Shown here: piece by piece, positions 36,216 through 43,511 of the stretch | How the letters are laid out: every line of letters begins with the position of its first letter | How positions within the stretch are numbered: the stretch's first letter is position 1 | Source of the DNA: Ariolimax columbianus | Lineage: Eukaryota > Mollusca > Gastropoda > Stylommatophora > Arionidae | Direction: 5' to 3' | DNA: 64,000 bases | Assembly: GCA_036924085.1 (NCBI GenBank) | Contig: JAVGWX010000025.1 | Coordinates: 25,769,488-25,833,487, forward strand | Position numbers and translations under genes: made by a program | Notes under the pieces: model-generated | What the model was told of the DNA's origin: nothing | Database searches by the model: none | Seen by the model: only the letters and a program-made list of their open reading frames with translations

Positions 36216-36458
36216 TTCGTTTAACTGATGCTACGCTTCTAGCCAGGTGAGGTTCGCGAACAATAACTGTGCCTGTCAGGTCTTCGCAGGTCCCCCCCCC
36301 TATATTTACGAGCATGGTGACTACCCCCCGGGCCGGACTACCTCTATTGGGTCTGCCAAAGTGGGGTCCTGCTGCAGGAGATGTTCTGGGGGATACGCAA
36401 TCGCACGTGTAAGTTGGCTTTGAGTCTTCTTCTTCTTCTTCTTCTTCTTCGTACGCAG

Positions 36459-38339
36459 TCAGACAGTAACCATTATTTTTTCGAAAAAAGCGGCGGTCAT
36501 CCTGAGGCTCTCGCCACTGCCATAGAGCTTGTCTTGCAGTTCCACTGGTAATGGCCACATCTGCTCTCTCTGATCTCTCTCTGACTCTTCGTACGTCATA
36601 CTAGTATATGTTTGTGGTAGTCTTGCACCTTCTTTTGCCAGTCTGTCTGCCTCCTCGTTGCCTTGGATGTTGCAGTGTGACGGAACCCACTGTACCACTA
36701 CCCTTTTTGGTGCGGACTGCTGGCACAGTTTGCAGAGTGCTGCTCTTAAGTCATTAAGCTCAGTGTTTTTCTGGCTTTTTAGCGCTGTGACTACGGCGAG
36801 AGCATCTGTCAGCAGGACTATATGGCTCTCATTTTCCCTGTGTGTCACCATTTCTTCCACTGCCGCCCTCAGTGCCTCTGCCTCCGCTCTGAAATTGCTT
36901 GTGTACTTACCAGTAGCGAGTGACAGTGTTATTTGTCTGCCATTTGGTAGGTTCAGGAATGCTCCTGCCCCTCCGTTCTGTGTAGTGTTTGTTACAGAAC
37001 CGTCGGTGTATGCATGGGTCCAGTCCATGCTTGGGTAGCTTTTCGTTATGAAGCTTAGGGTAGTATCTCTCCTTTCTTTTTCAGTCTGGCAGTTTTTGTT
37101 TGCAATACCTGGTATATTTTCTACCACCTCTGGAAATATATCCTGCCTCCAGGTAGGTTTTCGTACAGTAGTGATGGGTTTTGGTGTTGTTAGTGCGTTT
37201 ATGGGATCTTCGTGCATCTCTGCTTTGGCTGTTTCTGCAAAGTTTCTCCGCTTTAGTTTCCCATTTCCCAAATTGTTTAGTATCTGGTGCATTGGATGGT
37301 CAGTCAGTCTTCGGAGTTTCTCTGACTGCAGCTGGGCTCTGCAGTCTCTTCTATCGGTCATGGATTGCAGTTTTGTAATCTTTTCAAGTTCTACAATTGG
37401 CGTTGACTTCATGCCACCTGTTATAATTCTCATGGCTTGGTTTTTAAGTTTGTTAACTTTATCGAAGTTCGACTTCGCTGCTGTTGTCCATGCCGCAATG
37501 CCATACTCGAGAACTGGTCTCACTCTTCCAGTATACAGTTTCTTTAGTATGCCTTCGTCTGCTCCCCAGCTTGTGCCAGCAAGTTTCCTCATGATTGCCA
37601 TTCTTTCTCTGGCTTTCATTCGGTTTCTCTCAATCTGACTTTTCCATGTCATGCGCCGATCAAATGTGACTCCCAGATAGGTTGGGTTGTCGTTTGGCTG
37701 CAGGATTTTGCCATTTAGACCTAATTTGGTACTTTGGGGTTTTAATGAAAGCGAGAATATTGTGCACGTGGTTTTCTCCTCGTTTATTTTTACCAGCCAT
37801 GAGTTCGCCCACTCTTCCAGCGATGTTAGGGCCGTCTGCATCCGATTTCTTGCTATGGTGAGATTCTTTTCAGAGGTCCACATAGCCAGATCGTCTGCAA
37901 ACATTGAGCTATGGACTCTTCTCGGTATATTCTCTGTAATGTCGTTTATATATACCAGGAAGAGTGTGGGTGACAATACTCCCCCTTGGGGTACTCCCTG
38001 CTCGAGTGTCACCTTTTTGCTCATCTGCCCTTGTACTTGGACTCTAGCCGTTCTTTGTTTGAGGTAGTGGTTGATCCACTTGTACATCTTCCCACAGACA
38101 TCACTTCTTCTTAGCTTGACTCTAAGTCCATCCTTCCAGACTTTGTCAAATGCCTTTTCCAGATCCACCCAAACAGCTACTGTGTGTTTCTGTGCCTGGT
38201 AGGCATCTTCTATCTCCTGGGCTATGAGGATGACCTGGTCCTCAGTGGATCTGTGCTGTCTGAAGCCGGCTTGCTGTGGAATTAGTATTCGTTTTTCTTC
38301 CAGATGCCACATCAGTCTGGTGTTTATCATCCGTTCCAT
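36459..38339 (-). pseudogene. Family A reverse transcriptase and RNase H ORF (626 residues)
   Basis: This is the best RT in the window. Motifs: QQAGFRQHRSTEDQVI (22-37), AVWVDLEKAFDKVW with catalytic Asp59, QGVPQGGVLSPTLF (114-127), SSMFADDLA with Asp149 and Asp150, and YLGVTFDRRMTW in the thumb (221-232). RNase HI: Asp446 (HAYTDGS), Glu486, Asp512 and Asp565 (PSHCNIQGNEEAD). Right after it, MTYEESER jumps to DQREQMWP. Compared with 53749-55392, about 80 codons are missing in frame, including the CPCGTGKM...HLLQNC zinc-knuckle-like block. The enzyme would copy element RNA at a nicked target. Frameshifts at about 38340-38480 separate it from its N-terminal part. Confidence 0.92.
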
Positions 38340-38394
38340 CAGCTTGCCGACACAGCTCAGTAGGCTGATGGGCCTGTATCCATTTGGATCTGTT

Positions 38395-39117
38395 TTATCC
38401 TTTACTGTTTTTGGTACTGGTACCAGTATTGCGTCTTTCCATGCCTGGGGTACAATACCCCTTTTCCAGCTTTGATAGTAATTTCCTCTTCGCTATTTGG
38501 CCCAGCCCCATCAGCATTTCGTTTGTTATCCCGTCTTTTCCGGGAGATTTCCTTTTCTTTAGTGTTCTCATAGCCTCTTCCATTTCGCGCATTGTTAGTT
38601 TGGCCATCATGTGCTCTTCAGGAGCCGTATTTATGTGTTCGTGTCCCTTTAGCTCTTCGCTAATGTCTGTATGCTTATCTGCAGGGACCTCGATGTGGTT
38701 TGCTCTGGCATAGTGATCGACAAAGGCGTTAGCGGCTTTCTTACCTGTGATCTAGTTCTCGCCCTGCTTGATAGCAATTTGTTTATTTGACGGGGTTTCG
38801 TCGTTCATGGCTCTGACTAGCTTCCATAGCTTGTTCCCGTCTTTGTCCAGGTTTAGACTTTCCGTTTTATTTTTCCAGCTTTCACTTGCTGTTTGCCTGA
38901 GAGTGTGTTTGTACTTCGCCGCGGAGGCTTTGAGGGCGATGTTTGCCTCCATGGATTTTTCTCGCTCTGCCATGTTCCTAGCAGTTGTTACTGCATCTTC
39001 CACTTTCTGCAATTCATCATTCCAGTAGGGCTTATAGTTTTTCCTAGCTCCTCTTGGGATGGTTTCAGTGGCGGCTTGCATTATTGCCTTGCTTAGGCTC
39101 TCTACCAAGGGCTTCAT
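38395..39117 (-). pseudogene. Family A linker and RT entry region
   Basis: Two open pieces belong here. 38752-39117 (121 residues) has MKPLVESLSKAIMQAATETI, ARKNYKPYWNDEL and LWKLVRAMNDETPSNKQ, and ends at a TAG where the related fragment at 10926-11255 reads LTGKKAAN. 38395-38610 has MREMEEAMRTLKKRKSPGKD, GITNEMLMGLG and a C-terminus that runs out of frame. Together they join the endonuclease to the RT. The TAG and at least one indel inactivate them. Confidence 0.85.
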
Positions 39118-39142
39118 TTTTGAGTGTCGTGTGTTGATGGTT

Positions 39143-41677: not shown

Positions 41678-41701
41678 CCGTGTTGAGTCAAATTAAGCCG
41701 C

Positions 41702-41750
<49 letters not shown>

Positions 41751-42878
41751 TTTGCAACCATACTTCCAAACACTTTGGTTTCCCGAAAGCTGCCCGCAGA
41801 GTCATCGAAGCAACTCCTGCGGATCGCTAGTCGGAATCGTTTATGGTCAGAACTACGACGGTATCTGATCGTCTTCGCGCCTCTGACTTTCGTTCTTGAT
41901 TAATGAAAACATTCTTGACAAGTGCTTTCGCAGTAGCTCGTCTTGCGGCGATCCAAGAATTTCACCTCTAACGCCGCAATACGAATGCCCCCGTTTGTCA
42001 TTACCTCCAGTTCCAAAAACCAACAAAATAGAACCGAGGTCCTATTCCATTATTCCATGCACCATTATTCAGGCAGCCGAGGCCTGCTTTGAACACTCTA
42101 ATTTTTTCAAAGTAAACGCGCCGGCCACCCAGGACGCTCAGCGAAGAGCACCCGTGGGAGAGAGCCGGCAGACGGTAGGGCAGGAGACAACGGGCAGTGA
42201 ACCGGCGCGAGCCGGACCGCCCGCCTGCGCCTGAGATCCAACTACGAGCTTTTTAACTGCAACAACTTTAATATACGCTATTGGAGCTGGAATTACCGCG
42301 GCTGCTGGCACCAGACTTGCCCTCCAATAGATCCTCGTTAAAGGGTTTAAAGTGTACTCATTCCAATTACGGGGCCTCGAAAGAGTCCCGTATTGTTATT
42401 TTTCGTCACTACCTCCCAGTGCCGGGAGTGGGTAAGTTGCGCGCCTGCTGCCTTCCTTGGATGTGGTAGCCGTTTCTCATGCTCCCTCTCCGGAATCGAA
42501 CCCTGATTCCCCGTTACCCGTTACAAACATGGTAGGCATGTCACGTACCATCGACATTTGATAGGACAGACATTTGAAAGATGCGTCGCCGGCACATGAG
42601 GCCATGCGATCAGCACAAAGTTATCCAGAGTCACCAGTGAGGGGAAACAACGATTGGTTTTGAACTAATAAAAGCGCTCTTTCCGCGAGGGTCGGAGCTT
42701 GGTAAGCATGTATTAGCTCTAGAATTGCCACAGTTATCCAAGTAGGATCGTGTCATCTAAGGAACCTCGACTGATTTAATGAGCCATTCGCGGTTTTACC
42801 GTGAGACAGTGTGAACTTAGACATGCATGGCTTAATCTTTGAGACAAGCATATGACTACTGGCAGGATCAACCAGATA
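41678..42878 (-). rRNA. 18S rRNA, 5' two-thirds (pseudogene)
   Basis: The minus strand begins TATCTGGTTGATCCTGCCAG at 42878, the 18S 5' end. It includes GTGCCAGCAGCCGCGGTAAT and the V4 region, and runs to TTAATTTGACTCAACACGG, where it stops about two-thirds through the gene. Compared with the copy at 50232-51099 it has small deletions in GGTAATGA...CAAACGGGGG and GTGTTTGG...AAGTATGG, otherwise very few differences. Loss of the 3' third and these deletions make it non-functional. It is joined to LINE-linked sequence at the same point as the other copy. Confidence 0.93.
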
Positions 42879-43511
42879 TCTGTCGGAGACGTACGTACAG
42901 CACACACCGGTCGGCGGAGGAAGGGTGTGTAAAAAGCCTCGCTGGGACGACGGCCGCAGGGACCGACTGACGGGACGGACGGTTTGTTCCACCCGTCCCT
43001 CACTCCGTCGACCTAGGACCGCCTGACAGGGGCCTCCCACACGCACCAGACGACCGATCGACCGGGCTCGCTCGAGGAGGGATGGCAGCGCTCTGTGCAG
43101 AACGGATCCCAACGACCTCAGCGATGAATTTCACTGGGACTAGAGACAATTTGGCCTGCCGGCCTGCCCTTCTCCGTAGGAGAACGCAGGGCCTCGAGGC
43201 AACGATTGCTGCTTTCCATTTGCCGGTCACAAGCTCTTTGCGAGAGTCGGACCACCAGCGAGACGTACTGTCGAGCTCTGCTATAAGCCTTAGATAAATC
43301 ACCACGGACGGACCACGTTTCCTGATACGGACCAGACCAGCGCACCTCGGTGGAGGAGCCACTACAACAAACCGCACCCAATTCGCTCTACGGGGAAAGG
43401 CAGGCGAGCGTTTTCCGCAAGCCCGCGCTATCGCTCCGCCTGGCGGGACTGAGATCGCTTTACGAACACTTGTTGAAATTGAGTCGCTGCGGCGAGACAA
43501 CTACCCCAGAT
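42879..43511 (-). rRNA. Probable 5' external transcribed spacer of rDNA
   Basis: GC-rich sequence lies directly upstream of the 18S 5' end in the same orientation. Position and composition suggest the 5' ETS of the host rDNA unit. I cannot confirm this without a reference. The right boundary is set by the proposed target-site duplication at 43512-43523. No tandem promoter repeats are seen. Confidence 0.55.

Follow-up and report, generated by a model that had tools for sequence, protein, structure and literature searches.

A stretch of 64,000 nucleotides from the genome of Ariolimax columbianus (assembly GCA_036924085.1, contig JAVGWX010000025.1, C25:25769488-25833487; hereafter "the window") was found to carry on its minus strand, at 36430-43511, a non-long-terminal-repeat retrotransposon (long interspersed nuclear element, LINE) with endonuclease, reverse transcriptase (RT) and RNase H, of which the 5' region of about 3.4 kb is largely captured ribosomal RNA (rRNA) sequence. 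This element, designated copy 1, is one member of a large dispersed LINE family, and its head, consisting of 5' external transcribed spacer (ETS) and 18S rRNA sequence, is inherited within the family. Taken as a whole, it is probable that the captured 5' region was gained by jumps of the RT onto precursor rRNA (pre-rRNA), and that the head was heritable in a burst of the family.

The order of parts in copy 1, read 5' to 3' along the minus strand, is ETS-like DNA, 18S, an 18S/28S mosaic, the 28S 3' end, a leader, an endonuclease open reading frame (ORF), an RT-RNase H ORF and a (GAA)n tail (Table 1). The Rfam and Pfam matches agreed with this composite, which had been proposed in a preliminary description made from the sequence alone. 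The 18S sequence identical to that of the host reaches nucleotide (nt) 1237 (window position 41678), beyond the Rfam match to the small-subunit (SSU) model, and the mosaic that follows comprises some four diverged units in tandem, all containing a 28S piece that is in most cases preceded by an 18S piece. Both outer edges carry the target site duplication (TSD) GAAGACTCAAAG (minus strand), as previously described, but 8 of its 12 bases, instead of 7, are independent of the tail. Copy 1 has suffered private damage, including eight substitutions and two 10-base deletions in 18S, the loss of 240 bases close to the 3' end, and disrupted reading frames. Based on the order of endonuclease, RT and RNase H, which we take to be the mark of the I superfamily, the element was assigned to this superfamily by domain order alone, and the marks of target-primed reverse transcription, i.e., variable 5' truncation, TSDs and a simple 3' tail, were all observed. 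Among the best 120 matches to its RT, the relatives with names are mostly from gastropods (Littorina, Batillaria, Bradybaena and Elysia), the best showing 45-48% identity. One LINE protein match (P0093) is recorded for a bacterium, a gill symbiont of a bivalve, which probably reflects host contamination.

Other copies of the same 18S-28S-leader order, for which the preliminary description had recommended a search, were abundant in the genome (2.294 Gb in 401 contigs). The 27-base start of the element (ATCTGGGGTAG...) was detected at 4392 places with two or fewer mismatches, while the reversed pattern used as a control gave none. A query of 241 bases over the 18S joint yielded 1016 first-look candidates; by design only the 40 best, copy 1 among them, were scored, and all 40, located on many chromosomes, retained the joint. 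The size of the family is known from these 5' ends and joint candidates only. Because of the 4392 5' ends and the presence of the joint in 40 of 40 scored candidates, copy 1 is concluded to be a family member and not a local event. Among 12 copies, which were chosen for ETS reaching the edge of the locus and then extended upstream, 10 begin at the same first base as copy 1 and the other two at positions 153 and 191. All five copies followed to the 3' end showed 96-98% identity with copy 1 over bases 1-6930, with internal gaps in L016 and L012, and all end with (GAA)n and are flanked by TSDs of 11-13 bp (GTATAGAATATGG, GGAACCATGGAGC, GTAAAGAAAAAC, GTTTCCAATAC and GAACTACGGAGG). The joints thus recur across the family and are not unique to the copy 1 locus; had each joint been unique, the preliminary description would have regarded its view as refuted. 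The upstream flanks (100 bases) were compared at 20 places, the first plus-strand entries of the 4392: 16 resembled neither the element nor one another, three lay inside other LINE copies, and one was 18S. With 16 of the 20 sampled flanks unrelated, the copies sampled do not behave as a site-specific LINE of the R1/R2/R7/R8 kind, which occupies one site of ribosomal DNA (rDNA).

The nature of the first base of the element is suggested by locus L098. There, an ETS-18S stretch begins at ATCTGGGG with unrelated DNA upstream, passes the 18S joint of the element as true 18S (CTCAACACGGGAAAACTCACCCGGTCCGGACACTGTAAGG...), and continues to nt ~1290, where base 1 of another element follows directly without a gap; a single TSD, ATATAGATTG, surrounds the pre-rRNA piece, the element and the tail. 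The element and a true ETS-18S stretch elsewhere in the genome thus share their first base, and, judged from these sequences, the 5' end of the element appears to correspond to the host pre-rRNA start. From the shared start base and the single TSD it follows that the pre-rRNA piece and the element of L098 were inserted together. The earlier view that the composite of copy 1 was inserted as one unit likewise stands, since complete copies are bounded by TSDs and their start matches this true ETS-18S start. The 18S of L098 differs from that of copy 2, a second unit in the window (see below), at one of 867 bases. The 18S point of the L098 joint, GCTCTTTC (nt ~1290), is near the old 18S/28S joint within the mosaic units.

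Inheritance of the head was examined by comparing the majority sequence of the 12 copies with L098. No differing base was detected among the 1237 of 18S, while ETS showed 10 substituted sites and three short gaps; for four of the ETS differences the origin may be either the host or the element. In this alignment and in the analysis of ETS states, L028 and L032, which are truncated, were left out, and L061, one of the 5.8S loci described below, covers only part of the majority-L098 alignment. The ETS states at 174, 345-347, 148 and 151 are nested among the copies, L061 having the L098 state, and because of this nesting the ETS-18S head is concluded to be inherited within the family. The same joint in many dispersed copies and shared later mutations in the captured part were both observed, as a heritable captured head should leave them. 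The idea that each copy re-acquired a fresh ETS-18S at insertion was rejected on the basis of the nested ETS states.

The 18S part of the inherited head is frozen. When variants common to at least three copies were counted in 25 copies (25 of 30 rows, leaving out L011, L022, L023, L024 and L031), only one was found in the 1186 columns of 18S, against 20.1 expected, and 33 in 1945 columns elsewhere; these alignments were made at fixed reference length and ignore insertions. Singletons in the same copies are spread evenly, at 0.50-0.64% per base (0.50% in 18S and 0.54-0.64% elsewhere). Linkage between ETS and body was as low as r2 0.04, a value reached by 99 of 200 shuffles, whereas pairs of body sites 1.0-1.6 kb apart gave r2 0.28. 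In addition, copies 1 and 2 are identical over a 300-base stretch of 18S that includes a variable region, and variable 18S regions change readily. The 18S of the source copies is by some means kept equal to that of the host, be it exchange with 18S RNA or rDNA, the residence of source copies in rDNA, or selection.

Joints between pre-rRNA and the LINE are not restricted to the head. Among 53434 candidates of a 5.8S search, 40, on many chromosomes, were scored, and 22 of them were examined, representing 21 distinct loci (L059, a duplicate of L058, was left out of the count). In 19 of the 21, 5.8S and the second internal transcribed spacer (ITS2), in some loci together with ITS1 or the 5' end of 28S, are linked to the LINE of copy 1 in the same orientation. 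A total of 17 distinct joints was recognized, located from base 1 of the element to the leader (about position 3004), with two shared pairs, L061/L067 and L073/L077. The end points on pre-rRNA are in ITS2 or at the 5.8S 3' end in 18 of 21 loci and in the first part of 28S in the other three; 28S is several times as long as ITS2. At L062, 101 other bases intervene between pre-rRNA and LINE. L058 carries ITS1-5.8S-ITS2-28S 5' end fused to an element of copy 2 type, with TSD TTATACAGTTC around the chimera, and a single TSD around pre-rRNA plus LINE was identified in two (L098 and L058) of four loci tested, as either jumping or rDNA read-through would give.

Several of these loci show features of their own. 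L058 and L059, 86 kb apart on C4, are 99% identical duplicates of the ITS1-5.8S-ITS2-28S/copy-2-type chimera. In the L061/L067 joint, ITS2 (...GGCTG) stands directly before ATCTGGGG, with ETS 96% and 79% identical to copy 1 over the matched stretch; the ITS2 point is perhaps the 3' end of a processing intermediate. L073 and L077, both on C4, are similar chimeras in which the pre-rRNA part ends within two bases of the 5.8S model end, as if mature 5.8S were the acceptor. In L071, ITS2 is followed immediately by the tail of copy 1's LINE in inverted orientation.

The model that probably accounts for these structures is template jumping, in which the enzyme, during target-primed reverse transcription, would leave its own RNA and go on along pre-rRNA or its processing intermediates. 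Such jumps would run to pre-rRNA +1, giving 5' ends at ATCTGGGG, or stop short of it. An old capture may have given the now decayed 18S/28S mosaic and 28S 3' end; the 28S piece stops two model positions short of the LSU (large-subunit rRNA) end with the leader directly after, which would fit an old end-to-end jump. A later capture, or homologous exchange at the 18S relic, could then have supplied the host-identical ETS-18S head, which would have become heritable and ridden a burst. Less surely, ongoing exchange of the 18S part with host 18S, as RNA or rDNA, may keep the two identical and unlink ETS from the body. Jumping has the edge over rDNA insertion followed by read-through, because the joints are many and different and cluster in ITS2, two of them fall at the 3' end of 5.8S, and run-off is exact at base 1. 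Trimmed ITS2 intermediates would supply RNA ends at the ITS2 end points. A farther-reaching proposal can be made only tentatively, and falls short of an even chance: that the LINE is tied to the nucleolus, with its RNA made from pre-rRNA +1, jumps to pre-rRNA or intermediates being routine, and continuing exchange with rRNA or rDNA keeping the 18S head identical to that of the host, which would thereby renew the 5' end of the element.

A number of observations weigh against acquisition by jumping or reduce its force. Both pre-rRNA +1 and its promoter are placed solely from insertion ends, and host ETS and 18S are represented by captured pieces, the 22 loci with 5.8S being chimeras or rearranged. 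The copies used in the 18S count were chosen by similarity over the joint, a bias covering about 120 of the 1186 columns, and the ETS-body linkage was calculated from three ETS sites. No sense joint was found at L066 and L071, nor a tail or TSD at L060 and L061 within the stretch fetched. The 19 joints are of mixed kind, with overlaps of 1-5 bases in six, none in five, and 1-101 unmatched bases in eight. Some chimeras are only 75-85% identical to copies 1 or 2, so that certain joints may have been inherited. The ORF half contains none of the 19 joints, the furthest being at about position 3004 of 7.3 kb, a distribution not expected of random jumps along the RNA; jumping must therefore assume either that coding RNA is preferred in cis or that jumps start from 5' ends.

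The lack of joints in the ORF half, and L098 by itself, are accommodated equally well or better if LINE copies resident in rDNA (18S, ITS2 and 28S) were transcribed together with the pre-rRNA from its start and the resulting read-through RNA was retrotransposed, the resident of the main family being joined to 18S at nt 1237. This alternative, the main rival, we consider unlikely but serious. It explains the fixed 5' end at the inferred +1, and the location of every joint upstream of the ORFs, which matches cis preference; L098, with 18S to nt ~1290 running into element base 1 within a single TSD, is the very structure that it predicts, and a TSD around pre-rRNA plus LINE alone cannot separate the two. 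A single 18S joint in the 40 scored copies and copy 2, despite a difference of 20-25% between the bodies of copies 1 and 2, is in its favor, as are the identity of the majority 18S with that of L098 and the reassortment of ETS and body, both expected of recombination in rDNA arrays; a LINE inserted in rDNA could also yield the ITS2-to-18S joints. It would, however, need as many separate transcribed and mobilized rDNA insertions as there are joints, i.e., 17, and leaves the clustering of end points in ITS2 rather than 28S unexplained. Relative to L098 and L061, the ETS of the family shows fixed and nested changes of its own, and the element past nt 1237 is decayed but 18S-like and 16 bases short, resembling the edge of an exchange tract more than an insertion junction. 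No rDNA-resident copy was seen in the sequence covered, which did not include the rDNA array. The preliminary description had favored a simple form of read-through: its unit is indeed mobile as one piece and begins at the ETS-18S start, but a single read-through transcript does not agree with a heritable head with nested ETS subfamilies and many further joints; the alternative of resident copies amounts to that idea repeated many times.

The frozen 18S might instead be due to selection, either because the head aids expression or localization or because small RNAs cannot target it without hitting the ribosome. The deficit of shared 18S variants is as this would predict, while the identity of the 300-base stretch with its variable region, and the reassortment of ETS and body across 18S, which points to exchange, make it improbable. 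An artefact of assembly or polishing from abundant rRNA reads comes to mind because the assembly of rDNA is difficult and the 18S seems too clean; it is very improbable in view of the TSDs at the outer edges of whole units, the same joints on many chromosomes, and the private mutations in 18S, which are nearly as common as elsewhere, indicating that polishing has not washed the 18S copies. A single local event at the copy 1 locus, by one read-through RNA or by piecemeal recombination, would fit copy 1 taken alone and is hardly credible; it is refuted by the 18S joint in 40 of 40 scored candidates, the thousands of 5' ends, and the dispersed copies flanked by TSDs, all five further complete ones having the same order.

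The proposed acquisition of rRNA by jumping onto pre-rRNA has partial counterparts among known elements. R1 and R7 are LINEs that insert at a fixed rDNA site and are tied to the rRNA transcription unit, and R1 and R2 are not known to have RNase H, while copy 1 has it. The likeness to R2 and R8 is the tie of a LINE to the rRNA transcription unit; the difference is that R2 and R8 keep to one fixed rDNA site, whereas the copies here are at varied non-rDNA sites and rRNA is part of the element (PMC5035012). In a study of R2 (PMC3414825), the Drosophila R2 RT is described to leave the 5' end of its RNA and copy other cellular RNA (U12 or tRNA, 18-170 bases), U12-extended R2 may have founded a subfamily in D. 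ambigua, and R2 RNA is excised from the 28S co-transcript. The passage of a LINE RT to a second cellular RNA would be common to both systems, and the short internally deleted elements (SIDEs) of the R2 paper resemble copy 2 in that the ends are kept and the ORFs lost; R2, however, is 28S-specific and picks up short U12 or tRNA pieces, whereas here about 1.9 kb of pre-rRNA from +1 lies in front of older 18S/28S captures in a dispersed LINE of endonuclease-RT-RNase H order with thousands of 5' ends (PMC3414825). For human LINE-1/28S rRNA chimeras, 18 insertions are described, in which the 28S pieces have a median length of 269 nt, with template switching or RNA ligation proposed; they share with the present elements the joining of rRNA, mostly in sense, to a LINE, and differ in being described there as single insertions, whereas here the family inherits the rRNA (PMC13174262). 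The same source mentions short interspersed nuclear elements (SINEs) derived from rRNA with 28S or 5S heads, which copy 2 resembles in its rRNA head and LINE tail (PMC13174262). Copy 2 differs from them in its 2.5-kb length with 18S, mosaic, 28S and LINE leader, and in that a coding LINE has the same kind of head. No LINE family with a heritable pre-rRNA 5' end was found in literature searches covering titles and abstract openings, with the subscription literature largely outside them.

The question of how the 5' ends and promoters of LINEs are replaced is an old one, and in the literature as far as it was accessible the jumps described are mostly single events. A graded set is available here in one genome: pre-rRNA joints at many points, two loci with an enclosing TSD, a decayed capture of ancient date, and a recent one from which a lineage with thousands of 5' ends arose. 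This set makes the origin of LINE 5' regions and the cellular site of LINE reverse transcription testable. In practice, matches to 18S, 5.8S or ITS in such genomes may be parts of retrotransposons and not rDNA, which affects barcoding and rDNA annotation.

Table 1. Parts of the rRNA-headed element (copy 1) and related features in the window
Feature	Position	Strand	Remarks
Copy 1, whole composite element, 7.1 kb	36430..43511	-	5' end at 43511, (GAA)n tail at 36430; 96-98% identity with five dispersed copies in matched stretches
5' TSD of copy 1, GAAGACTCAAAG	43512..43523	-	GAAG may belong to the tail
3' TSD of copy 1, GAAGACTCAAAG	36418..36429	-
5' ETS part	42879..43511	-	Base 43511 is the inferred pre-rRNA +1; 10 of 12 copies and the L098 pre-rRNA piece begin there
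18S nt 1 to ~1237	41678..42878	-	Rfam and alignment; SSU model positions 4-1116 at 42875-41759 (-), 896.5 bits; majority of 12 copies vs L098, 0 differing sites
Old decayed mosaic of tandem 18S/28S units	41027..41677	-
Decayed 28S 3' end	40624..41026	-	Rfam LSU model positions 3005-3399 of 3401, 61.9 bits
Leader, 28S 3' end to endonuclease domain	39850..40623	-	Partly common to copy 2
Endonuclease ORF (stop to stop)	39143..40102	-	Pfam PF14529 1.8e-16, PF03372 2.7e-12
RT-RNase H ORF (stop to stop)	36459..38492	-	Pfam PF00078 1.1e-39, PF00075 6.2e-17
Copy 2, ORF-less, 5'-truncated in 18S	50232..52748	+	18S, mosaic, 28S 3' end, leader, GCGTAC(GAA)n
Left 475-bp direct repeat, adjoins copy 2	49757..50231	+	Perfect
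Right 475-bp direct repeat, adjoins copy 2	52749..53223	+	Perfect
5'-truncated copy of copy 1's LINE	31275..33497	-	Inside short tandem repeat
5'-truncated copy of copy 1's LINE	20786..21778	-	TSD TAAACAAAAAC
5'-truncated copy of copy 1's LINE	27582..28448	-	TSD GATGTGTTGG
Truncated copy of copy 1's LINE	53823..55517	+	Between 55-bp satellite stretches
Sixth, internal piece of copy 1's LINE	10392-11252

The second 18S-mosaic-28S-leader unit of the window, copy 2, had escaped the preliminary description. Its 18S starts at nt ~350, its mosaic has one unit fewer than that of copy 1, and its leader passes directly into GCGTAC(GAA)n; since copy 2 is 5'-truncated, its own first base is absent from the locus. 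With the head and tail of its partner LINE, including the common GCGTAC(GAA)n 3' end, and without ORFs, it has the structure of a SIDE or non-autonomous derivative, and L058 and L059 carry further elements of this type. Compared in 100-base blocks, copies 1 and 2 are 98-100% identical in 18S, the two 10-base deletions of copy 1 aside. The identity falls to 96% in mosaic unit one and to 90-92% over the two blocks that follow; beyond these, most blocks are at 68-87%, and a single one, in the leader, reaches 94%. Decay of the 28S piece is seen in both copies, even at what is presumably the sarcin-ricin loop. The two 475-bp repeats stand exactly at the ends of copy 2, while the duplications of its relatives are only 10-13 bases; they represent either an unusually long TSD or a duplication.

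As to the 5' region of copy 1, no match to a hepatitis delta virus (HDV)-like ribozyme of the R2 kind was detected by Rfam at E up to 5 in 42870-43530. A 31-base stretch (AGTCCCGCCAGGC..AGCGATAG..CGGGC) occurs twice in copy 1 on the minus strand, in ETS (43421-43450) and just upstream of the endonuclease domain (39970-39999); the local score of this ETS/leader repeat is 39, against a maximum of 27 in 50 shuffles. The predicted folds of the 5' 147 bases and of a motif common to the ETS and the leader do not stand out (z -0.24 to -0.58). Viral contigs gave no match to the 18S joint and a single, unconfirmed match to an RT pattern.

Besides copies 1 and 2, the window contains five other 3' pieces of copy 1's LINE, two with perfect TSDs (10 and 11 bases) and one with an imperfect TSD. 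A different, decayed LINE relative, about 23-39% identical to the searched proteins, lies beside copy 2 at 46884-49099 on the minus strand, and 57819-62902 is taken up by tandem repeats of 24 bases, about 5 kb in all, that contain long open frames.

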